Assembly: GCA_036476315.1 (NCBI GenBank)
Contig: JAZGBI010000109.1
Coordinates: forward strand, 1-38,615
DNA length: 38,615 bases
Direction: 5' to 3'
Source: Candidatus Neomarinimicrobiota bacterium
GTDB lineage: Bacteria; Fidelibacterota; Marinisomatia; Marinisomatales; S15-B10
Shown: piece after piece, positions 6,942-27,987 of the stretch
How the letters are laid out: every line of letters starts with the position of its first letter
Position numbering within the stretch: the first letter of the stretch is position 1
The notes under the pieces: generated by a model
The model's input: the letters and a program-made list of their open reading frames with translations, nothing else
Databases searched by the model: none
Told to the model about the DNA's origin: nothing
Position numbers and translations under genes: made by a program

Positions 6942-9900
6942 CAGTTTCCAGGCTAAATAGATCGCTCCCCATCGTTGTTTCCTTTCTGGTCTTCCCCGGA
7001 CTCATTCTCGGGGGCATCACTGGGAAGATTGCAGGAAGGATTGCTGATGCTCAAAGTGGTGATGGACTCGCAGGCGTAAATGTGGTCATTCAGGAAAGTG
7101 AGATGGGAGCTGCGACGGACAACAGCGGCTATTACGTCATACTCAATGTTCCCCCGGGGGACTATATGCTGAAAGCTTCCATGATCGGATACTCCGACGT
7201 AACCGCAACGAATGTTGTGGTGGTGATGGGTCAGACGACCACGCTCGACCTGAAGATGGAAACCGAGGTGCTGGCCGCGGAAGAAGTCACCATTGTCGCC
7301 GAGCGTCCCGTTGTGGTAAGGGATGTTTCAAACAGCCAGCTGAATGTCACCTCCGAGACCATTGAGAACATGCCCATCCTCGATGTTACGGAGGTGATTG
7401 GGCTCCAGGCCGGAATTCAGGGAATGACGGTCCGGGGAGGAAGTGCCCGCCAGACCGCTTTCGTGGTAGACGGGATTGTCCTGAATGACGAACGTTCAAA
7501 CGATCCCTACACCTCAGTGAGTTTCGGCAGTATTAGTGAAGTCCAGGTGCAAACCGGCGGATTTAACGCCGAATACGGAGATGCAAGGTCGGGCATCATC
7601 AATGTTGTCACCAAAGGGGGCGGGAGGGATAGATACAGTGGCTCCATTATTCTCCGGTACAGACCCCCAGGCAAGAAACACTTCGGTCCATCGGTAGACG
7701 ACCCAAACACCTTTTTCACACGCCCTTACCTGGATCCTGAAGTTTGCTACACGGGAACCGACAATGGTACCTGGGATGCTTACACCCAGAGGCAGTATCC
7801 GGCTTTTGAAGGATGGAATACCGTTTCTCAAGCGACACTTCAGGACAGCGATCCCACAAACGACCTGACACCTGAGGGGGCAAGACGACTTTTCAGGTGG
7901 CAGCACAGGAGAAACAGCAATATTGTGAAACCGGATCAGACCCTTGATGTCACGATAGGGGGACCCGTGCCCTGGATTGGCAAGGAGCTGGGAGATCTCC
8001 GTTTCCATTTTTCATACCGGGATCTCAAGGAAATGTTCATTATCCCCCTGGCCCGGAAAAGCTATGATGCGAATATAGGTCGTCTCAAGCTCACCACGGA
8101 CATAAACCCGGAAACGAAATTGACGTTGACCGGAATGTACGGTGAAACCCATTCCGTTTCTCCATACCAGTGGCAGACCACACCCACGGGAGACGTTCTC
8201 AGATCCCCCTATGAGATCGCGAACTATGTAAGCAGCAGTTCCGGGAACAGTATCATCTATATGCCCGGTTGGTTCAGTCCCAGCACAATCTATCGAACTA
8301 TATTGGGAGCGACATTCAGTCGCGTGCTGAGTTCAAGAACGTTTTACGAGGTGTATCTTCAGCACAACAGAAATCGGTACAACACCTACAAAATGGCAGA
8401 CCGGGACACAACGCGAAAGTATGAGATCCTGCCCGGCTATTTTGTGGATGAGGCACCGTTCGGATACTGGGGCTATGGCGTGACCAGCATAGAGGGCATG
8501 AGGATTGGCGGATGGATGAACCTTGGACGCGACTCCAGTGTTGTGTCTACGACCACCCTCCGTTTCAATTTTACCAGTCAGCTCAATAGCACCAATCAGA
8601 TTAAGAGCGGACTCAAGGTGACGTTCAATAACTACGACATCAACTCCTCCACCGAGAGTCCGTCCATGACAACCTGGACGCGAGATCAGGTTTATGAGGT
8701 CCACCCCTTTAGAATTGGAGTGTACGCTCAAGATAAACTGGAATTCGAAGGGTTTATCGCCAACGTGGGACTTCGTCTTGACTACTCCGACGCAAACTCG
8801 CCCCGGTATGAATTGGACTTTTATGACCCTTATTTCAAGGAAGGTTACGGACACCTGATTGAGGAAGAGGTACCGGTCGACAATGCGGAACCCCAATGGA
8901 GTTTGAGTCCCCGTCTGGGGGTGTCGCACCCCATTACCGACAATTCCAAGCTCTACTTCAATTATGGCCATTTTCGCCAGGAGCCTTCCTCTACCTACCG
9001 ATTCAGGATTCAGCGGGAGTACAATGGACTCGTGACATCCATCGGGGAGCCAGATCTGCGGCTGGAGAAGACGGTCTCCTACGAATTGGGCTATACACAC
9101 TATCTCTTCAACCGGCTTCTTCTGAATATTGCCGCTTATTACAAGGATGTGACGAACGAACACGGTTGGATCACCTATCAAAACATCAATAATTCGGTTC
9201 AGTACCTGAGGGCTTCAGATAATAATTATGAAGATATTCGCGGACTGGAATTCACGCTCGACAAGCGGGTAGGAAGATGGGTGACCGGTTTTGTCAACTA
9301 TACCTACGAAGTGAGAACTTACGGATATTTTGGCCTGACTGAGTACTATGAGGATCCCAACAGACAGCGGGAATACCTGAGACAGAACCCCTATCAGGAA
9401 AGACCTCACCCCAGACCCTACATGCGAGCCAATCTCGATATTCATTCTCCTGAAAGATTTGGCCCGGAGCTCAACGGGGTCTACGCATTGGGAGATTGGA
9501 ACGTCAATCTACTTGCAACCTGGCGAGCTGGTGCATTCACGACCTATAATCCCAACAGCGGACCCGGAATAGTGGATAATGTCCAGTGGAAAGACAGCCA
9601 CAATATCGATCTCCGGGTGACAAAATCGTTGCGGATTGGAGGTCAAGAAATGCAGTTGTTCGTGGATCTCACAAACGTCTTGAATTCCAGATTCTTAAGC
9701 TACGCAGGTTTTTCCGACAATTTCGACTATCTCGACTACATGGAATCGCTGCACTTTGCCTGGGAGGAGGGTGTTGAGAACGGTAATGACAGAGTTGGGG
9801 AATACCGCGAGACTCAAGTGAATTACATACCCATGCAGTCGGTTTCCAGTCTCGACGTGGTTCTCGATCCCGAGCTCCCTGTACTTTACTATGACCTGGA

Positions 9901-10069
9901 GACAGAAAGATACGTACAGTTCGTGGAAAACGAATGGATGGAACGAGATGAAAGCTGGATCAAAAGGGAGGTCATCGATAAGAAGGCGTACATCGACATG
10001 CCCAATCTCACCTATTTCACCTACCTGAATCCCCGGAATGTCAAGCTCGGCATCAAAGTGAGTTTCTAA
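6938..10069 (+). CDS. TonB-dependent receptor (SusC-like), family 1; start codon abnormal
   Basis: About 1043 residues from the proposed start. In order: signal peptide (PIVVSFLVFPGLILG), a carboxypeptidase-regulatory-like domain (TGKIAGRIADAQSGDGLAGV and MGAATDNSGYYVILNVPPG), a TonB plug (NVTSETIENMP, TVRGGSARQTAFVVDGI, GGFNAEYGDARSGIINVVTK) and a barrel ending in LGIKVSF. No TonB box is obvious. The frame is open back to 6872 but has no ATG, GTG or TTG before the signal peptide. The most plausible initiator is ATA at 6938, overlapping the TAA of the upstream gene, with GGAAGG only two bases before it. A single-base error or mutation of ATG is equally possible. The first in-frame GTG (7082) would delete the signal peptide. 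The next cargo-like gene starts 25 bases after the stop. Confidence 0.9.
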   Translation: MTVSRLNRSLPIVVSFLVFPGLILGGITGKIAGRIADAQSGDGLAGVNVVIQESEMGAATDNSGYYVILNVPPGDYMLKASMIGYSDVTATNVVVVMGQTTTLDLKMETEVLAAEEVTIVAERPVVVRDVSNSQLNVTSETIENMPILDVTEVIGLQAGIQGMTVRGGSARQTAFVVDGIVLNDERSNDPYTSVSFGSISEVQVQTGGFNAEYGDARSGIINVVTKGGGRDRYSGSIILRYRPPGKKHFGPSVDDPNTFFTRPYLDPEVCYTGTDNGTWDAYTQRQYPAFEGWNTVSQATLQDSDPTNDLTPEGARRLFRWQHRRNSNIVKPDQTLDVTIGGPVPWIGKELGDLRFHFSYRDLKEMFIIPLARKSYDANIGRLKLTTDINPETKLTLTGMYGETHSVSPYQWQTTPTGDVLRSPYEIANYVSSSSGNSIIYMPGWFSPSTIYRTILGATFSRVLSSRTFYEVYLQHNRNRYNTYKMADRDTTRKYEILPGYFVDEAPFGYWGYGVTSIEGMRIGGWMNLGRDSSVVSTTTLRFNFTSQLNSTNQIKSGLKVTFNNYDINSSTESPSMTTWTRDQVYEVHPFRIGVYAQDKLEFEGFIANVGLRLDYSDANSPRYELDFYDPYFKEGYGHLIEEEVPVDNAEPQWSLSPRLGVSHPITDNSKLYFNYGHFRQEPSSTYRFRIQREYNGLVTSIGEPDLRLEKTVSYELGYTHYLFNRLLLNIAAYYKDVTNEHGWITYQNINNSVQYLRASDNNYEDIRGLEFTLDKRVGRWVTGFVNYTYEVRTYGYFGLTEYYEDPNRQREYLRQNPYQERPHPRPYMRANLDIHSPERFGPELNGVYALGDWNVNLLATWRAGAFTTYNPNSGPGIVDNVQWKDSHNIDLRVTKSLRIGGQEMQLFVDLTNVLNSRFLSYAGFSDNFDYLDYMESLHFAWEEGVENGNDRVGEYRETQVNYIPMQSVSSLDVVLDPELPVLYYDLETERYVQFVENEWMERDESWIKREVIDKKAYIDMPNLTYFTYLNPRNVKLGIKVSF

Positions 10070-10071
10070 TT

Positions 10072-10097
10072 CATGGAGAGGGTTTCGAATCTCCATG
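10072..10097 (+). promoter_or_regulatory. Perfect 8-bp stem-loop covering ribosome site and start codon
   Basis: CATGGAGA (10072-10079) pairs perfectly with TCTCCATG (10090-10097) across a ten-base loop. The left arm holds most of the only good ribosome site (GGAGAGG) and the right arm contains the ATG at 10095. In mRNA the hairpin would hide initiation until it is melted, for example by ribosomes finishing the TBDR just upstream. The pairing is seen; the role in translational coupling is inferred. Confidence 0.5.
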
Positions 10098-12233
10098 GAT
10101 AAACACATAGTAGTCTGGGCCAGCGTGCTGTCTTTTTCTTTTCTCTGGGCCCAGGTGGGGGAAAACGAAAAAAGGTACGTTCGAGTTGGCACCCTGCAGA
10201 GTCATTTTTCCGCCTACGGCTCGGAACGTGCCTGGAACAACACCTATTATGAGGGACTAATCTGGCCGGCGGACTACCCCTATCAGGACAATGCCGTCAT
10301 AAAAAGAGCCTGGATTGCCGCAACAGATTTCACGGATTCAGAGGACGAGCACTGGGACGTCTGGGGAACCTATATTTCCAGTGGATACGTGCAGAATTCC
10401 CTGTTTCCCATGAAACTGACTCAAGTAGCCAGATTTGAATCCCCTGTTGTGTTCGTCGATGGAAACAACATAACTGCCCCGTATGCAGGGGATGTAGATG
10501 AATTCAATCCTGGCCAGATACCCGATCGAATCGTGACCAATGTTGTCAACACTTCACTCGGTCTCACCATGACCCGTCGAGTCCTGGCATTCAGTCAGCA
10601 GTACCATGACAATTACTTCATCAAGGAATTCGTTTTCACAAACACAGGAAACGTGGATTTCGATGACGACATTGAACTCAATGCCACCCTGAAGGGAGTT
10701 CGTATCGGATGGGGAACGCGTTACAGTGTCTCGCGGGAAGGATCCATTGCGGTCGACGGTCAGCAGTCATGGGGCAAACATACCTGGGTGAGTAAGCGTG
10801 GAGAGGACTACCCCTCCCATGCGGCAGAGTCCATAACGGAGGATAATCCCATTGTGGACTGGATCAGGTGTGGTTTCAGCTGGTTCGGTCAATCAGAAAG
10901 GGTGTCCTTTGACAATATTGGCGCCCCGGATGTGAGGCATGACGGCCGTCTTACCTCTCCTCATCACGCGGGAAGTGCGATTCTTCATGTAGATAAAAGT
11001 GTCACCGACAGAAGTGACGATCCTCATCAGCCTGCCGTACTCGGGTGGCACGCGGGCGATTCTTATCCGTCGGTGGGTAATATCACTCCTTCGGACATGA
11101 ACAATATGATCAAACTGTACGATTTCCTGAGCGGTAAACCCTATCCGAGTGAAAACTCGGGGGATACCCTGAGGATGGACGAGACATTTCTGGAATCTAT
11201 CACGCACCGCCTGGACCCTTACACCATTCACAATGACGGAGGGGGAACCAATGTCTGGATCTGCTATGGTCCGTTTGATATACCTCCCGGAGACAGTATT
11301 GTCATTGTCGAGGCGGAGGGAATCAGCGGACTGAGCCGGCAAGAATGTGAAGAAATCGGTCGAAGGTGGAAAAAAGCTTACGACAATCCCAGCGATTCCG
11401 GTCCCTTTATTCTTCCCGACGGTTCCGAGACGAGTGACAAGGATGTTTTCAAGAACACGTGGGTGTACACGGGCAAGGACTCCATTCTTCAAACGTTTGG
11501 AAGGGCAAAAAGAAACTACGACCTGGGATACCTGATTCCCCAGCCCCCTCTGCCTCCTCCTGTCTTTGAGGTGACGTCCGGAGGAGACAAGATCATGCTC
11601 ACGTGGAGCACCAGTCCTACGGAAGGAGAACCGGATTTTGCGGGCTACAAAATCTTCCGTGCCGTGGGAAAACCAGATACCACCTATGAACAGATAGCCG
11701 CTCTTAGCCCGGGCGAAACGTTGTTTGATGACGTGACTGCGGTTCGCGGATTCTCTTACTACTACTATATCGTGGCGTACAACGACGGGTCCAGTAACTC
11801 AACAGGAGAGGCAAATCCGATGGGCATACTCCACAGCAGCAGGTTCTACACAAGAACCACAGAACCCGCATTTCTCAGGCGGCCAGCAGGAAAGTCCCTT
11901 GAGAAGATCCGGGTAGTGCCGAACCCCTTTCATATCGCTGCGGGCGACCTTCAGTACACGGGCGAAAAGGACAAAATCATGTTCCTGAATATTCCCGCAC
12001 GTTGCACCATCAAGATTTTTACAGAAAGAGGTGATTTGATAAAAACCATTAATCATGCAGACGGCAGCGGAGACGAAGCGTGGAATTCGGTAACGTCATC
12101 GCGTCAGGTCGTGGTGAGCGGTATATACCTGGCTCACTTCAAGGTGACTGAGGACTACACCGACCCGGCCACGGAAGAACTTCTTTACAGGAAAGGGGAT
12201 ACTGCCATCCGCAAATTCGTTGTTATCCGGTGA
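10095..12233 (+). CDS. Large exported protein with Fn3-like and T9SS-like C-terminal domains (TBDR partner, family 1)
   Basis: 712 residues, paralogous to the protein at 1929. Signal peptide MDKHIVVWASVLSFSFLWAQ. The N-terminal body has RYVRVGTLQSHFSAYGSER, LIWPADYPYQDNAVIKRAW and HDNYFIKEFVFTNTGN, aligned by eye with the first copy. Proline-rich PQPPLPPPVFEV leads into an Fn3-like domain (residues about 490-590), followed by a C-terminal domain starting IRVVPNPF (about 605-712) with TERGDLIKTINHADGSG and SGIYLAHFKV. Tail motifs of the two copies are almost identical while the bodies differ more, suggesting a shared export signal on diverging functional domains. It follows the TBDR at 6938 by 25 bases, repeating the receptor-partner order. 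Function is unknown; surface exposure through T9SS is inferred. Confidence 0.82.
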   Translation: MDKHIVVWASVLSFSFLWAQVGENEKRYVRVGTLQSHFSAYGSERAWNNTYYEGLIWPADYPYQDNAVIKRAWIAATDFTDSEDEHWDVWGTYISSGYVQNSLFPMKLTQVARFESPVVFVDGNNITAPYAGDVDEFNPGQIPDRIVTNVVNTSLGLTMTRRVLAFSQQYHDNYFIKEFVFTNTGNVDFDDDIELNATLKGVRIGWGTRYSVSREGSIAVDGQQSWGKHTWVSKRGEDYPSHAAESITEDNPIVDWIRCGFSWFGQSERVSFDNIGAPDVRHDGRLTSPHHAGSAILHVDKSVTDRSDDPHQPAVLGWHAGDSYPSVGNITPSDMNNMIKLYDFLSGKPYPSENSGDTLRMDETFLESITHRLDPYTIHNDGGGTNVWICYGPFDIPPGDSIVIVEAEGISGLSRQECEEIGRRWKKAYDNPSDSGPFILPDGSETSDKDVFKNTWVYTGKDSILQTFGRAKRNYDLGYLIPQPPLPPPVFEVTSGGDKIMLTWSTSPTEGEPDFAGYKIFRAVGKPDTTYEQIAALSPGETLFDDVTAVRGFSYYYYIVAYNDGSSNSTGEANPMGILHSSRFYTRTTEPAFLRRPAGKSLEKIRVVPNPFHIAAGDLQYTGEKDKIMFLNIPARCTIKIFTERGDLIKTINHADGSGDEAWNSVTSSRQVVVSGIYLAHFKVTEDYTDPATEELLYRKGDTAIRKFVVIR

Positions 12234-12248
12234 GTCACTCTCTGGACT

Positions 12249-12290
12249 CCAAAATTATGTTGACCTGTTCGGTCGAAATACATAATTTGG
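12249..12290. promoter_or_regulatory. Imperfect inverted repeat with candidate promoter
   Basis: CCAAAATTATG (12249-12259) pairs with CATAATTTGG (12281-12290) with one bulged A, and GACC (12262-12265) pairs with GGTC (12271-12274) inside it. There is no T-tract, so it is not a standard terminator. A TTGACC (12260) and CATAAT (12281) pair with a 15-base spacer could be a sub-optimal promoter for the next gene, in which case the repeat might be an operator. The evidence is only the bases. Confidence 0.35.
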
Positions 12291-12297
12291 ACGAAAG

Positions 12298-12320
12298 AAG
12301 GGGAGAGATACACTCCCCTT
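12298..12320 (+). other. Leader hairpin upstream of the beta-propeller gene
   Basis: AAGGGGAG (12298-12305) and CTCCCCTT (12313-12320) form a perfect 8-bp stem with a seven-base loop, followed by TATAAGGAAAC and then, about 25 bases on, a strong ribosome site. It lies in the 5' leader of the gene at 12358. It may stabilise the mRNA 5' end; no function can be shown. Confidence 0.4.
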
Positions 12321-12357
12321 ATAAGGAAACAAGCATTCAAAACAGAGGGGGTGACAA

Positions 12358-13698
12358 ATGAATAGACTGCTAAAGCTGATGATCATCATCATAGCCGTGT
12401 CCGGTGTTATGGCTGCGCAGTGGACCTATGAGGAGGACTTCTTCGAAGGTACGCTAATTCACGGTGTTGTTGTGGATCCGGACGGCAAGATATGGATAAC
12501 CCAGTACGCTCAGACAGACACTCTTGTGTTGACGTCAACCGATACGGTTACCGCGTCAGGGATATCCGTATTTAACTCCGATGGAACTGAAGCATCCTTT
12601 TCACCCATCACAACGTTGACCGTGGATGGAGTGACGGATACCCTCATCTATAGCAACCGGGGAATCTCCCTTGACGGTGATGGAAACATCCTTACATCCA
12701 CCGGATCCCTCTACCAAATAAACTATCAGACGGGCGAAGGGATGAACAAATACATGTTCGAGGGTTCGGGTGCCCAACCGTTGACGGAGGCGGGAGCAGA
12801 CGACAATGGCTTTGTCTACATCGCTCACGTGCTCAACGGACATGCACTGGTGATCCTGGATGAGGATTGGTCAGAATACAATGTGGTGGCGGACACAGTC
12901 CACACTATCCAACGCTCCATTCTCGCGAGCCCCGATGGAAAAGATGTCTACGTAGGTGCAATATACACTACCTACAACGGGATTCTCCATTATCACAGTG
13001 ACGATGGCCCCGACGGAACGTACTCACTTGTCGATACCCTCTACGGGAAAACCGGCAAACAGTTGTGGGCGCAAATCCTGGACTGGGATAACAACGGCCT
13101 CCTCTGGGTCGGCACCTATTGGAATGTGGATGCCGATGATTTTACCGGTTGGTACGCGCTGGATCCCACGCAGGACTACTTTGCCGTCGACACTATCGGA
13201 CATAATGCAAATACAGCGGATCCTCCCGCTATCGGAGATACGCCACCTGCCGGGGGTAGCTATTACGCCCCCAGGGGGATAGCCTTCAGTGCAGATGGAC
13301 TGACGGCCTACACCGCAGATTTTGACGGCGGCGTAGTCAAGAAATGGACCAATTCAGATCCAGCTCAACCGGGAGACACACCGATCCTGCCTGACCTGAG
13401 GATAGACTACGAAAGAGGTAATCCCATAATTGCAGTGGAGTTTACCCTTTCTCAGAACTATCCCAATCCGTTCAATCCGACGACGACTATTCCTTACGAT
13501 CTGAAACAAAGCGGTATGGCGAAATTGACCGTCTACGATATGCTCGGACGGGAAATCGCAACACTCGTCAATGAACCGAGACCGGCTGGTCGTTACAAGG
13601 TTCTCTTCGATGCCACTGGATTGGCTTCAGGTATGTACGTCTACAAACTGGAGTTCAACAACCGTGTGATTTCAAAGAGAATGACGTACATGAAGTAG
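12358..13698 (+). CDS. Secreted beta-propeller protein with T9SS type A sorting domain
   Basis: 446 residues. Short signal peptide (LLKLMIIIIAVSGVMAAQ). Residues about 25-350 contain propeller-type segments: GVVVDPDGKIWITQYAQTDT, ISLDGDGNILTSTGSLYQI, ILASPDGKDVYVGAIYT, DWDNNGLLWVGTYWN, IAFSADGLTAYTADFDGG. These resemble SMP-30/NHL-like repeats; no catalytic residues can be assigned. Residues 362-446 are a canonical type A sorting tail: FTLSQNYPNPFNPTTTIPYD, KLTVYDMLGREIATLVN, ASGMYVYKLEF and a basic end. The start has a GAGGGGGTGA ribosome site. It is the last gene of the first plus-strand block: a possible promoter and hairpins precede it and a strong terminator follows, so it may be its own transcription unit. 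It is probably surface-anchored or released by T9SS. Confidence 0.87.
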   Translation: MNRLLKLMIIIIAVSGVMAAQWTYEEDFFEGTLIHGVVVDPDGKIWITQYAQTDTLVLTSTDTVTASGISVFNSDGTEASFSPITTLTVDGVTDTLIYSNRGISLDGDGNILTSTGSLYQINYQTGEGMNKYMFEGSGAQPLTEAGADDNGFVYIAHVLNGHALVILDEDWSEYNVVADTVHTIQRSILASPDGKDVYVGAIYTTYNGILHYHSDDGPDGTYSLVDTLYGKTGKQLWAQILDWDNNGLLWVGTYWNVDADDFTGWYALDPTQDYFAVDTIGHNANTADPPAIGDTPPAGGSYYAPRGIAFSADGLTAYTADFDGGVVKKWTNSDPAQPGDTPILPDLRIDYERGNPIIAVEFTLSQNYPNPFNPTTTIPYDLKQSGMAKLTVYDMLGREIATLVNEPRPAGRYKVLFDATGLASGMYVYKLEFNNRVISKRMTYMK

Positions 13699-13728
13699 AA
13701 CATCGCGCCGGTTTAATCTCTAAAGAAG

Positions 13729-13762
13729 GGCCGACGGAATCCCGTTCCGTCGGCCTTTTCTT
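13729..13762 (+). terminator. Rho-independent terminator
   Basis: An 11-bp perfect GC-rich stem, GGCCGACGGAA (13729-13739) with TTCCGTCGGCC (13745-13755), encloses a five-base loop and is followed by TTTTCTT. It lies 30 bases after the stop of the propeller gene and ends the first plus-strand block. Confidence 0.93.
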
Positions 13763-13829
13763 GCTTATTCCCATCCCGGGTTTCTAAATTCCTTCATCAA
13801 CTCAGCCGCATCTTCAGGAGAATAAGACC

Positions 13830-14621
13830 ATGTTGGTGAAGATCTTCAAAAGTGCCGACGATTACTCGAAGGCCGCTGCACGGGTAATCGCCAGACTGAT
13901 CGGCCGAAAGCCGGATGCCGTTTTGGGGCTGGCCACCGGATCTACGCCTGTCCCTCTTTACAATGAACTCATTCGACTTCATCAAGAAGAAGCTTTAGAC
14001 TTTTGCAGGGTCACCACGTTCAATCTCGATGAATACGTGGGCATTACTCGGACTCACTCCCAGAGCTATCACGCCTTCATGAAGGAGAATCTGTTCTCAA
14101 AAATCAACATCCCCTCCGAGAATATTCACGTTCCCAACGGAACGGTGGAGAATATCGAGCAGCAGTGCGAATGGTATGAGGAAAGGATTAGACTCAAAGG
14201 CGGGATCGATCTTCAGGTGCTGGGGATCGGCGGAAACGGACACATCGCCTTCAATGAACCGGGCTCTTCACTGGGATCCCGCACACGAATAAAGACATTA
14301 TCTGAGCGAACTCGAGATGATAACAGCCGGTTCTTTGACTCTATGGACAAGGTTCCGAAATATGCCATTACCATGGGAATCGGTACGATCATGGAATCTC
14401 ACCGGCTTCTCCTCCTGGCTTCGGGCAAGAGCAAGGCCAAAGCCATAAAAAACACCGTGGAGGGTCCCATTACCGCTATGGTGCCCGCCACGATTGTCCA
14501 GATGCACCGTTACGCCATGATCTACATCGATGAGGCAGCCGCTTCTGCCCTCAGCCGTGAATACGAAAAAATAAAACCCGAAGACGTCGCCAGAAAGAGA
14601 AGCGTTACGATACAGCTCTAA
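13830..14621 (+). CDS. nagB: Glucosamine-6-phosphate deaminase (NagB)
   Basis: 263 residues, close to family length. NagB converts glucosamine-6-phosphate to fructose-6-phosphate and ammonia in the cytoplasm, feeding amino sugars from chitin, peptidoglycan or glycoproteins into glycolysis. Visible motifs: phosphate-binding LGLATGSTP near residues 32-40, FNLDEYVG with catalytic-type Asp67, GIGGNGHIAFNEP with His138 and Glu143 of the catalytic relay, and SRTRIKTL. Asn136 occupies a position that is Asp in the Escherichia coli enzyme but Asn in Bacillus-type enzymes, so it is not a defect. The AGGAG ribosome site at 13816-13820 supports the start. The gene is alone between a terminator and a convergent glycoside hydrolase gene whose stop is four bases away. 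Confidence 0.96.
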   Translation: MLVKIFKSADDYSKAAARVIARLIGRKPDAVLGLATGSTPVPLYNELIRLHQEEALDFCRVTTFNLDEYVGITRTHSQSYHAFMKENLFSKINIPSENIHVPNGTVENIEQQCEWYEERIRLKGGIDLQVLGIGGNGHIAFNEPGSSLGSRTRIKTLSERTRDDNSRFFDSMDKVPKYAITMGIGTIMESHRLLLLASGKSKAKAIKNTVEGPITAMVPATIVQMHRYAMIYIDEAAASALSREYEKIKPEDVARKRSVTIQL

Positions 14622-14625
14622 GGTA

Positions 14626-17600
14626 TCATTTGAGGAGAAGCATTCTCCTGGCCTGAAAAAGGCCGCCTTCCCGATCCAGATAATAGATATAGACGCCCGA
14701 TCCTGCCCGGGTACCCGATTCCGTTTCACCGTTCCATTCGACACTATGAATTCCCGCCGGGAATTCACGGTTTACAAGCGTCTTCACGTGGCGTCCGGCG
14801 ATGTCGTAAATGGTGAGCTGCACCCTGCCAGGTGTGGGGAGTTCAAAGGGTATCACCGTACGGTTGTTGAAAGGATTTGGATAGTTCTGCAAGAGACGGA
14901 ATTTCTCCGGCAGACGAGGTCCGGCATGGGCCACCGAGAGGGGAGGCGTTTTCCTTACTATCCGGAGATCGTCGAAATAGATGGTTCCGCTGGTGGCTGC
15001 CCCCTGTTCGTGAGTGAGTTGAAAACTGTCTATCCGGAGGTCGCCTTCGAGGATTCCATTTCCAATCCAGTTTCCCACGGGATCAGATCCCAGATCCCAT
15101 TCAACCAGCCTCCAACCCACCCAATCTATGGTCCTCCAGGGACTGACTTCATGATACGCCGCTGTACCTTCAGCAGGAGCGTGGTCATCCACGCAGAACC
15201 GGAATTTGTTGTGACTCCCGTCACCGTATAAATAACACTGAAGCACGTAACTCGTATCGAACAGTACATCTCTGGGGGCTCCTCCCGAAAGATACTCCCG
15301 GAGCAGATGTTCAGACGCCGATTGGTCCCACACATAGGTGAGCTTGGCCGATTTCTTCGGTGCGGAAGCTGGAAGATAGGTTTCCGTGCTGTACCCAAAA
15401 CTCGTCCCTGCCAGTATTCCCGTGGTGGAACCGCTGTAACCGGGCGATTCCCAGTTGCCGGGAAACGTAAATTTGTCAATCAGGATTTCCTCCATATAGC
15501 CCTGATTAAGGGTCGTGAAATCAATGGTCATATGGGAACCCACGGTGTTACCCAGCAGATCCTTGATCGTGCTGTGAAGAAAAATCTGGTACGATCGCTC
15601 CGGATCCAGTGGATCGTCCGATTGGATGCTGAGGACCGATCTGTTGTTGTACGTTGTCAGGAGAAGACTTCTGTCGATACCTGTGGATCCTCTGTTAAGG
15701 AGAACGGTCGTGTCATTGATGGAACCGGGATCCACGAGCTCGTCAAAGAGAATTGTCACAACATCTTCTACATCGAACATGTCCATCTCAGTCTCATAAT
15801 ACGGGTAGCTGAAAACAATCCCGGGCCCTGTCACGTCTTCTTCTTCGGTTCTGAAATTGAGCTCGTAAGGGTCCCCTCCCACCCCGTCGCCGTCTCCATC
15901 GATGGCCGATCCGTTGATATCCAATGCCCCAGTGTCTATCGTGAACCTGTAACTGTTGGCATAATTGAGAACCTGTTCAAACTGGATAGTGAGGGTCCTG
16001 TGATCGCTCGACCAGATTATCTGCTCCACGGCCGCGGTGGGCGATAGAGTTATAGCATCCGGCACCGTTTGCACGTCCATCGTTTTCGAGAATGAAATGA
16101 TAATCTCTGCGCTCACGCTGATCGTATCCCCCTCGACCGGATCGGACTGAATCACCGTGGGCGGAAAGGATGGAATCGAGTCACTCATGACAACATTGGA
16201 AAGGGGAGATTCGTTCCAGTACCGGTTCAGCGTGGTGGCTCCGTAGCTGTACTGGCCGTTGAAATCCTGCGTTCCCGGGAAACTGTCCGAAACAGTGAAG
16301 GCACGATTTCCAAACACTCTCTCAACAATCAGATCATCACCAGTCTTCACGTTCGCGTCTTCCGATCGATAGACTACGTACCAGTTATCGACTCCACCCG
16401 TATCACGGGGTGTGACGGTCAATCGATACTTCAGCGAATCGATCTTGATGATATCGATAGTCGGACTATCAGGATATGTTGTATCCACAAGGGCAGTGCC
16501 ACGAACTTTCGTTTTGGCTGGAAAGAATTGCTTCGCTTCCTCCCAGTATTGATAGTAGTCCCAAGTGCCATACCTAAAGAACTGAAAACCGTCGACCCAG
16601 GGCACACTGCGGGAAGTCTCGACGATCTGGGGATGGTTTCTCCACCTGTTCTGGTCGGCCAGGGCATAAGACCCGGGCCCCACGCTGTAAAGCCGGCCGT
16701 TGGAAATCCCCTTTTCAATATGGTCTTCCCAGCATTGAGGACAGGAGCCCGTCAGCATCCCGTAGAATTCATTTCCCGTTGTCCAGTGGTAATGCATGGG
16801 GGTCAACTGATCGATATGCCCTTCGTTGAACCATAGAGCGGCATCCTGATAAACGACGCCGTATCCCTGCCAGCCAGACCAGTTGTATTTCCCCAGCGCC
16901 GCCACGGAGAGGCGTACCCACGGTTTCACGGCCTGAATGGAGTCGTGCAGTACCCGGACAAATTCGGTCACCGTCCACCGCCACCAATCCTCCCAGGAGG
17001 GGAATTGGCCTCCGTCAACACTGTCCGGAGGATCCTCACTGTACGGATGTGCCGCGTCGTACAGGTATCGTCCGCCCGGATTCTCCTGCAGTTCCCGTAT
17101 CTGTTCTTCCGTAATCATTCCATCAGAGTACCGGTTTTCTTCCACCAACCGCGCAAACCCGCGGGATCGCTGAGAACTCGTGAATTCATTCCAGCGGACG
17201 TAGTCCAGATGAAGGCCATCGATATCGTAATTGTCAACGATTTCCATGGCGACGGAGAGGAGATATTCCCTCACTGCTTCAAGTCCGGGTGAGAGAGCAA
17301 GATTGGACGTCATAGGATTGCCGTCGCGATCTCTGCAGATCCACTCCTCGTGCTCCTGGCTGGGACTCCCAGGGTAACTGCTCCTGGCCTCGAACACATT
17401 CATCCATGCGTGAAGTTCAAGACCTCGTTTATGTGCCTCCTCCACCGCATAGGCGAGAGGGTCATAGCCGGGGTCCTGGTGACCCGCGTAAGAGCCCCAC
17501 GGTTCGTAGGAGGACGGATAATAGGCGGTCCCGCTCTGGCGGGCCTGCCACAACACGGCGTTCATGTTGCCTTTTCTGTGATTATCCATGATGGACCGGG

Positions 17601-17745
17601 CGAGAGCCTGATTCTCTTCAACACTACTGCCCGAATTGATTAAATCCCACGTGACCACCCAGGTAGCCCGGAATTCCTCGTTGGCAGTTGCCGAGAAAAC
17701 GCAGCCTAACGAAAGGAATACCGAAACATAGATAACCCGATTCAT
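14626..17745 (-). CDS. Secreted GHL10 (DUF187)-type glycoside hydrolase with Ig-like, binding and T9SS domains
   Basis: 1039 residues. Signal peptide RVIYVSVFLSLGCVFSATA. Residues about 24-420 match the GHL10/YngK-type barrel: EFRATWVVTWDLINSG, MNAVLWQARQSGTAYYPSSY, YAVEEAHKRGLELHAWMN and IDGLHLDYVRW (Asp181 in the usual catalytic stretch). An Fn3-like region follows (about 430-520), then two Big_5-like Ig domains (SDPVEGDTISVSAEIIISFS; VEDVVTILFDELVDPGSIND), a jelly-roll-like putative binding module (about 760-930) and a type A sorting tail (945-1039, LLQNYPNPFNNRTVIPFELP, ending ARRMLLLK). The start is ATG 17745; longer in-frame extension would lie inside the upstream gene and encode Arg/Gly-rich sequence. 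It is eight bases after the phosphoesterase gene, so co-transcribed. Substrate unknown. Confidence 0.9.
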   Translation of the reverse strand: MNRVIYVSVFLSLGCVFSATANEEFRATWVVTWDLINSGSSVEENQALARSIMDNHRKGNMNAVLWQARQSGTAYYPSSYEPWGSYAGHQDPGYDPLAYAVEEAHKRGLELHAWMNVFEARSSYPGSPSQEHEEWICRDRDGNPMTSNLALSPGLEAVREYLLSVAMEIVDNYDIDGLHLDYVRWNEFTSSQRSRGFARLVEENRYSDGMITEEQIRELQENPGGRYLYDAAHPYSEDPPDSVDGGQFPSWEDWWRWTVTEFVRVLHDSIQAVKPWVRLSVAALGKYNWSGWQGYGVVYQDAALWFNEGHIDQLTPMHYHWTTGNEFYGMLTGSCPQCWEDHIEKGISNGRLYSVGPGSYALADQNRWRNHPQIVETSRSVPWVDGFQFFRYGTWDYYQYWEEAKQFFPAKTKVRGTALVDTTYPDSPTIDIIKIDSLKYRLTVTPRDTGGVDNWYVVYRSEDANVKTGDDLIVERVFGNRAFTVSDSFPGTQDFNGQYSYGATTLNRYWNESPLSNVVMSDSIPSFPPTVIQSDPVEGDTISVSAEIIISFSKTMDVQTVPDAITLSPTAAVEQIIWSSDHRTLTIQFEQVLNYANSYRFTIDTGALDINGSAIDGDGDGVGGDPYELNFRTEEEDVTGPGIVFSYPYYETEMDMFDVEDVVTILFDELVDPGSINDTTVLLNRGSTGIDRSLLLTTYNNRSVLSIQSDDPLDPERSYQIFLHSTIKDLLGNTVGSHMTIDFTTLNQGYMEEILIDKFTFPGNWESPGYSGSTTGILAGTSFGYSTETYLPASAPKKSAKLTYVWDQSASEHLLREYLSGGAPRDVLFDTSYVLQCYLYGDGSHNKFRFCVDDHAPAEGTAAYHEVSPWRTIDWVGWRLVEWDLGSDPVGNWIGNGILEGDLRIDSFQLTHEQGAATSGTIYFDDLRIVRKTPPLSVAHAGPRLPEKFRLLQNYPNPFNNRTVIPFELPTPGRVQLTIYDIAGRHVKTLVNREFPAGIHSVEWNGETESGTRAGSGVYIYYLDREGGLFQARRMLLLK

Positions 17746-17753
17746 CCGCGAAT

Positions 17754-19619
17754 TCAGTGTTGACTTTCGATGAGCATCACCCTGCCGTCCATATCCGTCA
17801 CCACCACCCGCTGTGCGTCCACGGGAGCCACCGTGTTCACCACCGTGACGCCCATTCGGTGTTTCCACCTGAGGTCTCCGGTTTGGGCGCCTGCGGCAAT
17901 CACAAGACCATTCTTGGTTCCAAAAAAGACGACGCCGTCTTTTTCCACCGGCATGGAAGGGTCGATGTCGTAGCCATAACCACAGGAGGTTGACCAGATA
18001 ATCTCCGGTTCCTGAGCTGAGGCGGAAAAGGCGAACAGGGTATCCCACATGGACCGGGCGTAGACCGTGGCGCCGTCTTCGGAAATGCCGATGGTTTCCC
18101 TCACGTTATACCCATCGGCTCGCCACACGGTTTTTCCCGTTTCAACGTCGATGGCCGTCATGAACCTGTCCGGGGCAACAATGAAAACCTTCTTTTCAGA
18201 TCCTACAGGCCAGCAGGCGGCGGGAGAATAGAGCGTGGAAGGATTCCCGTTCCACCACTTCCAGGCAAGGGAGCCGTCGCGAGAATCCAGTGCGTAAAGA
18301 TAGGAGTCCCAGGCGCCAAAGACGACCCTGTCCTCATAGACGAGCGGCCTGGTTTCAACGAAGCCACCCACCTCGGAAAACTCCCACACCCGGGTCCCCA
18401 ATTCCAGATCGATTGCCCTGAAAGTACCGTCACTTCCACCCACGTATACCGTGCCGCCACGGACCGCCGGCGCTGCCACCACCGGAGCCCCGGTTGCATA
18501 TTGCCATAAGCGATTTCCATTCTCCATATCGAGACAGTAGATACTGCTGTCCGCTGAGCCAAATACCACCTTTCCACCTGCTATTTGGGGAGTCGAATAG
18601 ACGGATGACCCCGTCTGAATCCTCCATCTCTCCGTCCCATCCTTCACCGAGAGATCGTGCACGGTTCCGTTGCTGTTCCCTACTACCACATGATCCCGCC
18701 AGACCGCAGGTGCGGAGGCAATGGTATGGTCCGTGTCAAATTTCCACTTCACCTGCGCCTGTGGATAGGCTGCATTTATGGAAAAGTCCGGTCGCTCGTA
18801 TTCCGTGGTATCAGAGAGATAGTCTCTCTCTTCAAGTGACAGCCGGTGCCAGGACGGTTTGGTCCCTTTCCCGGTGGTTCGTTCGTAGAAAATAAGACTG
18901 TCTCCGAGGATATCCACAATCGTGTATCCTCCCACCGGATCTTTGCCCCTCAGAGCGGATCGGCCGATTACACCAGGTATTCCTTCAAAATCGAGGACCC
19001 TGTTGCGATGGCCATGGCCCACCAATATGGTTTTTATGTTGAACGGTTTGATTCTATCGAGCAGTTCATACCAGTTGTCTATGGAGGAGTCGACAGGATA
19101 GTGCGTGACAAATATGAGTGGCTCTTCTTTCTCGGGAAGGTTCACCAGAACCGAATCGAGCCACCTCAGATCCTCCGGTGAAAAATGTCCATCCCCCATG
19201 CGCATCAGGGGACCCTCGTGCAATCCGATGAAACGGAAACCCCCGAACTCAAAGACAAACCTGTCGCTTCCCCACAGCTTGGGAAACTTTGTCGCTCCCG
19301 ACCCAGACCATTTGGTGTCGTGGTTGCCGGGAACAATGTAGTACGGCTTGCGGAGACTATCGAGAATCGCTTTGGCAAGTTCCAGACTGGAGTCGTCTCC
19401 CGTCTCTGTGATATCTCCCGAAATGAGAGTGAAGTCAATGTCGTTCATCCGGTTGATATCGTGCATGGCGAGACTCAAATCTTCGGCACCGGTACTGCTG
19501 CCCACATGAGTATCGCTCAGCCAGGCAAAGCGTGCGACAGTTTCCCGGTCCTCAGCAAATGTGACTGAGATAGAAAGGTAACTGAGAATCAGGAAGCAAT
19601 AACGGAAAAACAATGTCAC
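17754..19619 (-). CDS. Exported metallophosphoesterase fused to a PQQ-type beta-propeller
   Basis: 621 residues. Signal peptide YCFLILSYLSISVTFAE. Residues about 28-250 form a calcineurin-like phosphoesterase with all metal motifs: SDTH (Asp36, His38), SGD (Asp69), GNHD (99-101), VTHYP (His173) and GHGH (His202, His204). Residues about 290-621 are PQQ-like propeller repeats (VKWKFDTDHTIASAPAV, RWRIQTGSSVYSTPQIAG, LWQYATGAPVVAAPAVRGG, VWEFSEVGGFVETRP, LAWKWWNG, TVWRADGY, LRWKHRMG). The enzyme part hydrolyses phosphoester bonds with two metal ions; the propeller may bind a partner or polymer. No T9SS tail is seen. The GTG start overlaps by four bases the TGA of a degraded upstream frame. Operonic with the GHL10 gene, which suggests extracellular or periplasmic nutrient processing. 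Confidence 0.9.
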   Translation of the reverse strand: MTLFFRYCFLILSYLSISVTFAEDRETVARFAWLSDTHVGSSTGAEDLSLAMHDINRMNDIDFTLISGDITETGDDSSLELAKAILDSLRKPYYIVPGNHDTKWSGSGATKFPKLWGSDRFVFEFGGFRFIGLHEGPLMRMGDGHFSPEDLRWLDSVLVNLPEKEEPLIFVTHYPVDSSIDNWYELLDRIKPFNIKTILVGHGHRNRVLDFEGIPGVIGRSALRGKDPVGGYTIVDILGDSLIFYERTTGKGTKPSWHRLSLEERDYLSDTTEYERPDFSINAAYPQAQVKWKFDTDHTIASAPAVWRDHVVVGNSNGTVHDLSVKDGTERWRIQTGSSVYSTPQIAGGKVVFGSADSSIYCLDMENGNRLWQYATGAPVVAAPAVRGGTVYVGGSDGTFRAIDLELGTRVWEFSEVGGFVETRPLVYEDRVVFGAWDSYLYALDSRDGSLAWKWWNGNPSTLYSPAACWPVGSEKKVFIVAPDRFMTAIDVETGKTVWRADGYNVRETIGISEDGATVYARSMWDTLFAFSASAQEPEIIWSTSCGYGYDIDPSMPVEKDGVVFFGTKNGLVIAAGAQTGDLRWKHRMGVTVVNTVAPVDAQRVVVTDMDGRVMLIESQH

Positions 19620-19753
19620 CTCAACAGCACCGCCCTTCTGGTCTGAACGAATTGGCGTGTGTGATCATTGGTAGTCTTACCCGTGAAGGATCTGGCAAAC
19701 ATGCGGATAAAGTAGGTTCCACTACTCACAGCCGAATTTACAAACCGTTCGCA
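19616..19753 (-). pseudogene. Remnant of a T9SS sorting-tail gene
   Basis: In the frame ending at TGA 19618-19616 the minus strand reads AVSSGTYFIRMFARSFTGKT, then QFVQTRRAVLLR and stop. This is the last third of a type A sorting domain, with the usual SGTYF strand and a basic RRAVLLR end. Upstream the frame meets a TAG at 19756-19754, and no start, signal peptide or conserved NYPNPFNP segment lies in frame before it. The stop overlaps the GTG start of the phosphoesterase gene (GTGA). I infer that a secreted-protein gene once stood first in this operon and that all but its 3' end was lost. Confidence 0.7.
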
Positions 19754-19854
19754 CTATTGTTCACTTAACCTATCTAATCTTGATGAAGAACCGTGCAATT
19801 GTTGTCACAACAAGACAGCGGACCCGGTAGTGGAGCCCGTCAGGCAGTCGGTTC

Positions 19855-21252
19855 TCAGAACTGCACCAAGGGAGGAACGACCAATTGTCGATTAAGATCA
19901 CTCCCCCAAAAAACCAACATAGGAATACCTGTGAGTTCAATACTCTGCAGGTGAGAGGCATTGATTTTGACCTGAGCCTTATCGCGCAACTCCCTGATCC
20001 GTTCAGCAATCTGCTCTTTGTCGCTTTCGACAGTCTTGTTCTGATGGAGAGCAGATATGCCCATCATGTACAAGAAATATCGGCGCCACATCTGAGTGTC
20101 AGCACGGACCCGTAGAGTGGACTCCAAGCCCAACTCTTTTGCTCTTTCAGCTAAATAATGGTCACGAACCGTACTTTTCAAGAATCCTGTCAAGCTTTTG
20201 CTCAGCGCTTCACCATTCTCGGTGTTAATGGGGTAATCATACTTTCTGAGCAAGAGCAACACATCTTTTCCATCCCATACAAAATCAGGAGCTTGAATAA
20301 CCGGCAGGGAGAGATCAAACGCCTCAGATAACTTGATCTCGTCGCGAAGGATCATGGGCGGTTGGAGCGAATCCTCAGAACGAAAATCGAGCTCTGCTCT
20401 GAGAGACTTTATGACCTCAAGAAACCCCACTGCCTTTTGCCTGATTGTCAGGGGTGCCAGTAGATTGTTCACGTATTCATTTGCCAATCGGCTCTCTACC
20501 CGGGCTTGAAGGAGCTGTTTTACCTGCTGCCGCTTGTTATGAAGCTCATACGGGGTTAGAAACAGATCCTGCACCCTGTGTTCGACAAAAAGGATCGCAT
20601 ACCCATGAGACAACTCAACAACCTCCGAAGCCTCACCAGGATTTAACTGGTAAGCGGTTCTTTCCACCTGAATGGGTACTGTGCCATCCCCCCAATGAAT
20701 TGATGAATGGGTAATCTGAGTCCTGTGATCATTTTCTGCTTCTATTGCTAGATCTTCAAATGTTTTTCCGGAGCGAAGCGATTTGCGCCATTCTCCAGCA
20801 ATGTCTTCATCCTTACTGAATAGTGCCCGAACTTTCAACTGTTGAGTTGATTTTTGTAATGCCTGATGAATCGGTTCCGAATCGGGTTCCGCGTGAGCAC
20901 GAATCTCTTCAAGGTAGAGTTCACGAATAAGAGCCTGTTGCCTGGCGAAATCCACCGCCTCTATGTATTCCGGTGAATCATCCAGGCGATTCTCCACTGC
21001 CCACTGACTCACCACCATCTCGTCAATCAATGCGTCCAATGCCCTCTTATTCCTTTCTGTCACCTTATGAAATTCAGGGAAGGGTGTGAATTCCAATCGT
21101 TGTATAAACTGTTCTTTCGTAATCGGTTCACCATTGACGAGAGCCACATTTTCCTCAGAAATCCGTTGCGGTTCTTTTGCGCAATTGATGAGAAATAAAA
21201 CGGGTATTAAATAGACAAATCCCCGTCTGTTGTAGCTTTGTTTCAAACCCAT
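19855..21252 (-). CDS. SurA/PpiC-like peptidyl-prolyl isomerase lipoprotein
   Basis: 465 residues from ATG 21252. The N-terminus (MGLKQSYNRRGFVYLIPVLF, then LINC) is a lipoprotein-type signal with lipidation Cys at about position 24; Asn at -1 is unusual. Residues about 35-140 look like a SurA-type N-terminal region (NVALVNGEPITKEQFIQRLE, ALDALIDEMVVSQWAVENRL). About 150-240 resembles a parvulin/PpiC domain (VRALFSKDEDIAGEWRKSLR, KTFEDLAIEAEND, LNPGEASEVVELSHGYAILF). The C-terminal 220 residues are helical and unassigned. SurA-like chaperones escort outer-membrane barrels through the periplasm, apt beside so many TBDR and PorV genes. A GTG 21 codons upstream is possible but would spoil the signal. 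It could equally be a non-catalytic chaperone. Confidence 0.82.
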   Translation of the reverse strand: MGLKQSYNRRGFVYLIPVLFLINCAKEPQRISEENVALVNGEPITKEQFIQRLEFTPFPEFHKVTERNKRALDALIDEMVVSQWAVENRLDDSPEYIEAVDFARQQALIRELYLEEIRAHAEPDSEPIHQALQKSTQQLKVRALFSKDEDIAGEWRKSLRSGKTFEDLAIEAENDHRTQITHSSIHWGDGTVPIQVERTAYQLNPGEASEVVELSHGYAILFVEHRVQDLFLTPYELHNKRQQVKQLLQARVESRLANEYVNNLLAPLTIRQKAVGFLEVIKSLRAELDFRSEDSLQPPMILRDEIKLSEAFDLSLPVIQAPDFVWDGKDVLLLLRKYDYPINTENGEALSKSLTGFLKSTVRDHYLAERAKELGLESTLRVRADTQMWRRYFLYMMGISALHQNKTVESDKEQIAERIRELRDKAQVKINASHLQSIELTGIPMLVFWGSDLNRQLVVPPLVQF

Positions 21253-21271
21253 TTTTTGATATTTATTCGAA

Positions 21272-21302
21272 ATTATGTTTGACCGATCTTTTACAGTTGC
21301 AA
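21272..21302 (-). promoter_or_regulatory. Candidate promoter of the SurA-like gene
   Basis: On the minus strand TTGCAA (21302-21297) is followed after 19 bases by CATAAT (21277-21272), 20 bases before the ATG. The core CGGTC, A-rich spacer, CATAATTT recurs upstream of the gene at 12358. The match to consensus is modest. Confidence 0.35.
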
Positions 21303-21666
21303 AAGCTAACTTCACGAATACAGGCAGTTACGGAGACCAAAAACGGGCTTGGCACTACACTTTTCTCATCTGTGTCGTGTTTCATGGCATCTGCCCCGGA
21401 GCGATAACGACTCTTGGTTTGACCTTGCCGTTATCCACAACCTGAAGATATTGGTTCTTGCCGGATTTCTTGATTCGGACAAACAGAACCTCTCTCTATC
21501 AAGTGATACTGCAATGTTAAAATTCACTCCGGTTGTGATGCAAGACATATCACCCGAAACAAAAGATATATCTCCTATCGGTCAATTGGGTCCTGCAAGT
21601 GTCTCATCAAGAGGAAGCGGAGGGACCTTTCACACTTCTATATCGGAATTGGGAGCATTTGTCTCC

Positions 21667-27600: not shown

Positions 27601-27987
27601 TCAAGTGATATTTATGAATTGAAAACAATGGCAGCTTACGTCGATAGATCTGTTGCTGAAAAGAGGTTGGACCGTATTGTAGTAGTTCCCAATCCTTATG
27701 TTGCAGCAGCTTCGTGGGAGCAGAGGTTACCCCCCGGCATCATTTCCGGACGCGGAGAGCGAAAAATCGGATTTATTAATCTTCCGGAAAAGTGCACCAT
27801 ACGTATTTATACCGCCCGTGGGTATCTCGTACGTATCATTGAACATGAATCCACTATAGCCAACGGAACGGAATTCTGGGATTTAAAAACCAAAGATGGA
27901 ATGGAAGTGGCTTACGGACTCTATTTTTTCCACGTTGACGCAGACAATCTGGGTGAAAAGCTCGGGAGGTTTGCCATTATTAAGTGA
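24664..27987 (+). CDS. Large exported protein with Asp-rich motifs and T9SS-like tail (TBDR partner, family 2)
   Basis: 1107 residues. The signal core (GIITGSMLFLLMTMAYG) is preceded by about 25 residues, partly encoded by an inserted palindrome. The body starts GTHNGNLIATIYFNQGDISG and WPKGSGHEYGDENSILVAAE. Residues about 320-335 (DGIDNDDDGLVDES) and about 375-395 (DEDGDW, then DLNGNGEW) resemble calcium-binding Asp-rich loops. An Fn3-like domain lies at about 540-680, and the C-terminal about 105 residues (RIVVVPNPY, INLPEKCTIRIYTARGYLVR, GLYFFHVDAD, ending GRFAIIK) look like a sorting tail. It is paralogous to the truncated protein at 37397. Its TGA overlaps the ATG of the PorV-like gene. 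It is probably a T9SS cargo on the cell surface working with the receptor upstream; function unknown. Confidence 0.83.
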   Translation: MKILTYRLSAEQAGKQRQFRGLSGIITGSMLFLLMTMAYGGGPYGDVTFRRMGTHNGNLIATIYFNQGDISGWHGWGYPPPRIEWPKGSGHEYGDENSILVAAEVVNVHGDTIHILSESSLDWDATDTNPILGGQMGWEPLPGFFNPAQDSPAMSDLLESWPSDWPDRMNQDDPGWPGSWNGYFGRDVFQADQESYFVMDDNYNVEFDYIPDNTDPNRHGLGLQVAVRGLQWSDPLAQDCIFWLYDITNVSTTTYDKIVFGEVFDARVGGTGEENDDLAEFIAYGNIDITYSWDNDNLGSGGWSPVGYIGFAFLESPGIDLDGIDNDDDGLVDESRDNDAGTWLDAFPYGIDDVDRFRLFYKREPVPHWSGDEDGDWLGFGDLNGNGEWESSFEVLNDDLGMDGIGPDHPKYPGKDTGEGNGIPTEGEPNFGILDVDESDQIGLTSMESHVENSVVFANDELMWTLLQPDRFVTPDPNRLTNYEFFYASGFFLLEPGKTERFSLALLLGEDKDDILRNKKTVQNIYDANYRFKTPPLKPKVLAVAGDKKVTLYWDKLAERSRDPVYGFDFEGYMIYKSTWYDFSDSDPVTDSYGNVVFFEPAAQFDLVDGLVGPHSVGIGSEPGIDEPTGANLNMGTDSGLKHFWVDTDVLNGQTYYYAIVSYDKGYDTDFFERGLSNDSTLLVASPSISAIDFELDKLGNVIGKGINTAIATPSPPSAGYIPPELSELEHIAGPATGTILYTLLDPLKIKDSTTYHLVFGDTSANDDDTSANEIIYSVLNMTDFRTVLSNQTGIYGDNSLEFDGLMLTIYNDSTVNYDPSNSGWIAGSSNYELNVRDRKSSGPLYRSPSDYMIIFDSTMIDTSWDPASSSLNNRPAKFQIWDITFAENPKKLRFAFKEPRGQEDGLFIGGANIDYVYIWAEHDDGTYSKSWRLALEEPLDIFDTTGVGQDISVDTIRVEPIIPTVGDTLFISVTKPFRSSDIYELKTMAAYVDRSVAEKRLDRIVVVPNPYVAAASWEQRLPPGIISGRGERKIGFINLPEKCTIRIYTARGYLVRIIEHESTIANGTEFWDLKTKDGMEVAYGLYFFHVDADNLGEKLGRFAIIK
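24684..24704. repeat. In-gene near-palindrome (21 bp)
   Basis: CCTGTCTG (24684-24691) and CAGGCAGG (24697-24704) pair in seven of eight positions around CCGAA. It lies in frame in the N-terminus of the partner gene and encodes most of RLSAEQAGK. Its length is seven codons, so an insertion would keep the frame. Confidence 0.6.
26947..26988 (+). repeat. 21-bp tandem duplication inside the partner gene
   Basis: Two adjacent 21-base units begin with GATACATCTGCCAATGA at 26947 and 26968 and encode DTSANDD and DTSANEI. The reading frame is kept. It is probably a recent slippage or duplication event. Confidence 0.6.

Follow-up and report, generated by a model that had tools for sequence, protein, structure and literature searches.

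The locus lies in a window of 38,615 nucleotides, by which we mean the whole stretch of DNA that was analysed. On its minus strand, a phosphoesterase gene (PE) is preceded by an orphan sorting tail that overlaps the PE start and is followed by a gene for a GHL10 glycoside-hydrolase-like protein. The features of this region are, in window coordinates:

12358..13698, plus strand: tailed secreted protein belonging to the ancestral cluster, located ahead of the propeller-amidase pair in relatives (TIGR04183, 41.1 bits)
13830..14621, plus strand: glucosamine-6-phosphate isomerase/6-phosphogluconolactonase-like protein, convergent with GHL10 (PF01182, 91.5 bits)
14626..17745, minus strand: GHL10 glycoside-hydrolase-like protein with Big_5 domains and a sorting tail (PF02638, 119.4 bits; PF13205; PF13860; tail TIGR04183, 30.5 bits, cut-off 23)
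17754..19619, minus strand: calcineurin-like metallophosphoesterase with a PQQ/BamB-type beta-propeller, 621 aa, intact (PF00149 Metallophos, 64.4 bits, cut-off 21.5; PF13360, 129 bits)
19512..19729, no strand assigned: 218-bp segment with a second copy at C74:5301-5518 (210/218 identical)
19616..19729, minus strand: orphan sorting-tail remnant, the last 37 amidase codons and stop (1/114 nt differs from C74)
19730..19854, no strand assigned: unassigned filler from the repeat end to the isomerase stop, whose matches in the loci compared are all the window's own copies
19855..21315, minus strand: PpiC-type, SurA-like peptidyl-prolyl isomerase (PF00639, 30 bits, cut-off 21.7)

The PE motifs SDTH, GD, GNHD and GHGH, read by eye, are metal-ligand motifs. 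The GHL10 start was set by frame reading at the ATG at 17745, the longest open reading frame extending to 18048. In the filler, the minus strand carries a terminator-like hairpin at 19839-19819 (one site against 0.3 expected). Elsewhere in the window, a PorV-like protein (27984-29180; PF19572, 46.1 bits, cut-off 27) is encoded between a TonB receptor cluster and a tailed FG-GAP protein; our check for T9SS machinery covered this PorV-like gene.

Read on the minus strand, positions 19729-19616 give VSSGTYFIRMFARSFTGKTTNDHTRQFVQTRRAVLLR*, the 37 codons and stop of the orphan tail, while the wider frame 19753-19616 reads CERFVNSAVSSGTYFIRMFARSFTGKTTNDHTRQFVQTRRAVLLR and ends in SSGTYFIRMFARSFTGKTTNDHTRQFVQTRRAVLLR. 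The TGA of the tail (19618-19616) overlaps the GTG (19619-19617) that forms the first codon of the 621-residue PE reading frame. By domain search alone the identity of the tail is weak: it has no Pfam match at 0.001 when taken by itself, and it reaches an E-value of 0.034 against a tail HMM whose building set included its own parent. Its identity is instead carried by a DNA match within the same genome and by an insertion of 11-12 residues (around SFTGKTTNDHTRQ) that, among 13 aligned tails (this genome's own amidase and GHL10, ten amidases of relatives and one tail from L173), is found only in the amidase, encoded on a second contig, C74, and is shared by the orphan tail. A search of the genome's own DNA aligned window positions 19512-19729 with C74:5301-5518 at 210 of 218 positions (E 1.9e-99), and exactly two places in the genome contain this segment. 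Since 218 bp containing the tail match the terminal part of a tailed gene at 96% identity, the orphan tail read in the initial annotation is real and not a chance reading; of the span 19616-19757 given there, positions 19616-19729 stand as tail, whereas 19730-19757 (CERFVNSA) do not, the match stopping at 19729. In frame 19770-20063 (...LPDGLHYRVRCLVVTTIARFFIKIR), directly behind the isomerase stop, a further tail had been suspected by eye; it was discarded, since upstream of PE in this locus the tail HMM returned the known tail and no other.

The GTG at 19619-19617 is a plausible PE start, since a signal-peptide-like N-terminal stretch follows it (judged by eye) and the PE homologue of L082, 66% identical, has an ATG at the aligned residue. 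That the TGA/GTG overlap is the start actually used is likely but not certain, because an alternative start two codons in reads TTG in the window and ATG in the C74 copy.

The 218-bp segment comprises the 3' end of the amidase gene and the first 36 codons of PE, and the truncations on either side of it are complementary: C74 has the amidase whole and PE cut, the window PE whole and the amidase cut. On C74 the amidase is an intact reading frame of 873 residues (L033:5405-8026) with an Amidase_3 domain (51.7 bits), two Big_5 stretches, FlgD_ig and a terminal sorting tail that reaches 24.6 bits against TIGR04183 (cut-off 23), PF18962 not being listed at 0.001. The junction of ...LLR-TGA with the PE start is kept there behind the full-length cargo, and after the amidase stop a PE stub continues for 36 codons, with codon 33 changed from TGG to TAG. 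In agreement, a search of the genome with the PE protein returned PE itself, a distant propeller match and its first 38 residues on C74 with internal stops. The two copies differ at eight sites, one in the 114-nt tail (ACA/ACC, synonymous, in the comparison with C74:5405-5518) and seven in the 104 nt beyond it, in PE (two synonymous, four replacement, one stop). This asymmetry, 1/114 against 7/104, gives a Fisher p of 0.029 in one small post hoc comparison and could stem from gene conversion, from chance or from constraint acting on the tail. We also considered whether the repeat marks a mobile element and set this aside, as the genome holds two copies only and insertion-type inverted repeats are absent from 17700-21400.

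The initial annotation had taken the fragment as the trace of a lost secreted protein once translationally coupled to the phosphoesterase. The parent, however, is not lost, since it is the intact amidase on C74, beside its usual propeller partner; what survives of the coupling claim is that PE formerly stood directly behind this parent, which the junction kept on C74 supports.

Comparison with relatives points to the setting from which the amidase came. On C74 the amidase is immediately preceded by a PD40 propeller gene, and the stop codon of the latter shares bases with the ATG of the amidase (TAATG). A search of 101 genomes (100 relatives and our own) listed a full-length amidase in ten relatives, and the propeller stands directly upstream in all ten stretches, which argues that the propeller-amidase pair is ancestral; PE is present in none of the ten. 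A GHL10 homologue occurs on eight of these stretches, convergent with the amidase in six and divergent on the propeller side in two. In G049 and G078, homologues of the window genes at 7082, 10095 and 12358 are followed by propeller, amidase, a gene of about 415 residues (NamZ-like in G049; PF07075, 271.7 bits) and GHL10 in reverse. The window keeps the three homologues and GHL10, but the propeller-amidase pair is absent between them and lies on C74 instead. The region 7082-18048, which holds a TonB-type receptor, a tailed protein, a sugar-phosphate isomerase and GHL10, suggests a peptidoglycan-scavenging cluster. No full-length amidase or PE was listed in the nine same-family genomes searched, a result that hints that this cluster was gained by transfer and that also removed the candidate of an intact operon preserved within the family (0/9).

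Strong PE matches (E to 1e-90) were found in three of 130 genomes of the order (our own, G031 and G020) and in 46 of 245 genomes of the phylum. By identity, the closest homologues were not in the order sample but in L083 (titled KSB1), at 67%, and L082 (titled Stahlbacteria), at the 66% given above. We compared 42 PE loci (30 of 47 phylum matches and 12 from the nearest-homologue search) with 217-1800 nt of upstream sequence each. The tail HMM matched just upstream of PE in four of them: our own, L082, L087 and L089. The initial annotation had named the same short fragment, kept with its start codon in many relatives, as the mark of a small gene; this was not seen in the 42 loci, where tail-like sequence is limited to these four, two of them the ends of full-length genes. 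These two, from Ignavibacteriales MAGs, are tailed Kelch-repeat proteins (L087:8551-9923 and L089:8629-9923) that stop 10 nt and 7 nt, respectively, short of the PE start. A tailed protein immediately in front of PE is thus a recurring arrangement, with the cargo differing between loci. Amidase coding sequence lies upstream of PE in none of the 42 loci. L082 shares with the window the order PE-GHL10; 58 nt ahead of its PE is a tail fragment, interrupted by a repeat that looks dispersed. This fragment cannot be assigned to a parent, since the amidase search of the L082 genome gave tail-level matches only and no full-length gene. At L082:1-240, two copies of a CCGTAAGGGTTTTATATAAAA-like motif precede the tail and seem to cut its frame, and the contig ends there.

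The genes that now adjoin the two copies form a further line of evidence. The repeat on C74 adjoins an SSF transporter, MBL, PfkB and a truncated ADH, and the repeat in the window adjoins the PpiC-type isomerase. The ADH (L033:4926-5237) is cut after about 92 residues, and its remainder was not found in the genome, where a full homologue as query matched residues 2-92 at 76% and otherwise paralogues at 25-33%. Six relatives gave a strong isomerase match, and in four of them transporter-MBL-PfkB is on the same contig, co-directional with the isomerase as judged from PfkB: contiguous in G043, one gene apart in G088, four in G011 and about 14 kb away in G024. On the isomerase stretches fetched for G013 and G079 these three genes were not present. 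The genes beside both copies thus belong to one inositol-type operon in relatives, and its recruitment at both broken ends makes one exchange that duplicated the breakpoint sequence more likely than losses that occurred independently. A third piece of this operon, with at least four genes, IolB-like, xylose-isomerase-like and TPP-enzyme ones among them, is on contig C13 (L177:9140-13751), so the operon has been broken more than once and split into at least three parts. Moreover, no arrangement seen in relatives gives the isomerase orientation found here by a one-step inversion, so that at least one further flip is needed. The C13 piece and this orientation speak against a single clean inversion.

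Taken together, the tail is very probably the severed 3' end of the gene for a secreted N-acetylmuramoyl-L-alanine amidase, left when an operon was split at the amidase/PE border, with this border retained at both junctions. We infer, with good support, an ancestral operon of propeller, amidase and PE, which would also have included GHL10, found after PE in both the window and L082. A break at the amidase/PE border would have separated propeller-amidase from PE, and the border sequence would have stayed at both new junctions, most likely through staggered breaks and fill-in as in the pattern of DNA duplication associated with inversion (DDAI); the other ends of the exchange would come from the inositol-type operon that also carries the PpiC isomerase. 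Within this explanation, one exchange between the two operons whose staggered ends produced the 218-bp duplication is the somewhat better bet. Decay in place fits the break less well than a rearrangement from which 218 bp remained at each side. The tail that persists in the window gives rise to no useful protein, and its last ~25 bases probably still act as the upstream region of PE.

Complementary truncation would be explained equally well had the whole operon been duplicated and then reciprocally reduced, to PE-GHL10 in one copy and propeller-amidase in the other, with the 218 bp as the overlap of the deletions. The nearby ADH truncation shows that deletions did happen, but this account does not predict partners from a shared operon at both copies and requires two large deletions to end within the same 218 bp; we consider it possible but clearly the less likely course. 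It is improbable that the tail is a small gene or a regulatory reading frame coupled to PE, and equally so that selection has kept it as a short leader delivering ribosomes to the PE start. The near-absence of change in the tail relative to the PE stub would fit such a function, as would the reading frames of 37 codons from the GTG at 19729 and of 28 codons from an ATG further in. That contrast is nevertheless the single post hoc comparison described above, tail-like sequence precedes PE at only four of the 42 loci, and the region has no unusual RNA fold (z 0.91), Rfam match or sigma-70-type promoter match. We accordingly dropped the idea that the PE start holds a structured RNA, 172 of the 200 shuffled sequences having folded equally well or better, and likewise that of a promoter inside the tail, the sigma-70-type scan being one that may not suit this phylum. 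The fragment is a sorting-tail remnant and no conserved small gene. An assembly or binning artefact, with junctions from different strains or a misjoin, might be suspected in a 112-contig assembly, but it is more improbable still: the eight differing sites and the like tetranucleotide profiles (r 0.92 between window and C74, against 0.51-0.85 between the window and the seven relatives compared) make an assembly duplicate unlikely, the copies sit inside contigs of 38.6 and 61.4 kb, and the stated contamination is 0.69%.

The amidase/PE split may be compared by analogy with DDAI in Helicobacter pylori (Furuta et al. 2011), for which PMC8963470 and PMC3120642 describe an originally single-copy segment at both breakpoints, with genes created or cut. 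Here, too, a short segment lies at both junctions and the genes there are cut: the genome has two copies, one per junction. The partner flanks belong to one operon in four of six relatives, contiguous in G043, but the isomerase orientation does not fit one step and a third operon piece is on C13. The case differs in being known from unordered, unoriented contigs without an uninverted ancestor, the pre-event arrangement being absent from the relatives examined, and further changes are seen at the other breakpoint partner. Staggered-break inversions in Drosophila (PMC3355041) likewise duplicate single-copy DNA at either breakpoint, and of the two copies one stays intact while the other decays, but they concern a eukaryote and segments of 1-7 kb, against 218 bp in a bacterium. 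For this tail, likeness to the T9SS type A sorting domain (TIGR04183/PF18962) is confined to the parent amidase, the orphan fragment alone having no Pfam family and the amidase tail its private insertion. With the peptidoglycan-utilisation cluster of relatives (amidase, NamZ, GHL10, TonB receptor) this genome has Amidase_3 and GHL10 genes in common, but in the window PE occupies the former amidase site, amidase-propeller lies elsewhere and NamZ is absent between. A thin literature search found no paper combining orphan T9SS tails, pseudogenes and rearrangement, and we claim no novelty: breakpoint remnants are already known as a kind of feature, and this one is a cleanly traced scar.

The fragment is a breakpoint scar that holds the end of a still-living gene, and an apparently lost cargo can thus be recovered from the same genome. 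In an uncultured lineage, the 218-bp scar is datable as a marker of rearrangement. For a secreted phosphoesterase that is uncharacterised, the analysis names a peptidoglycan amidase as the former partner in the operon; with GHL10 still beside PE, this leads to the testable guess that the phosphoesterase works in cell-wall salvage.
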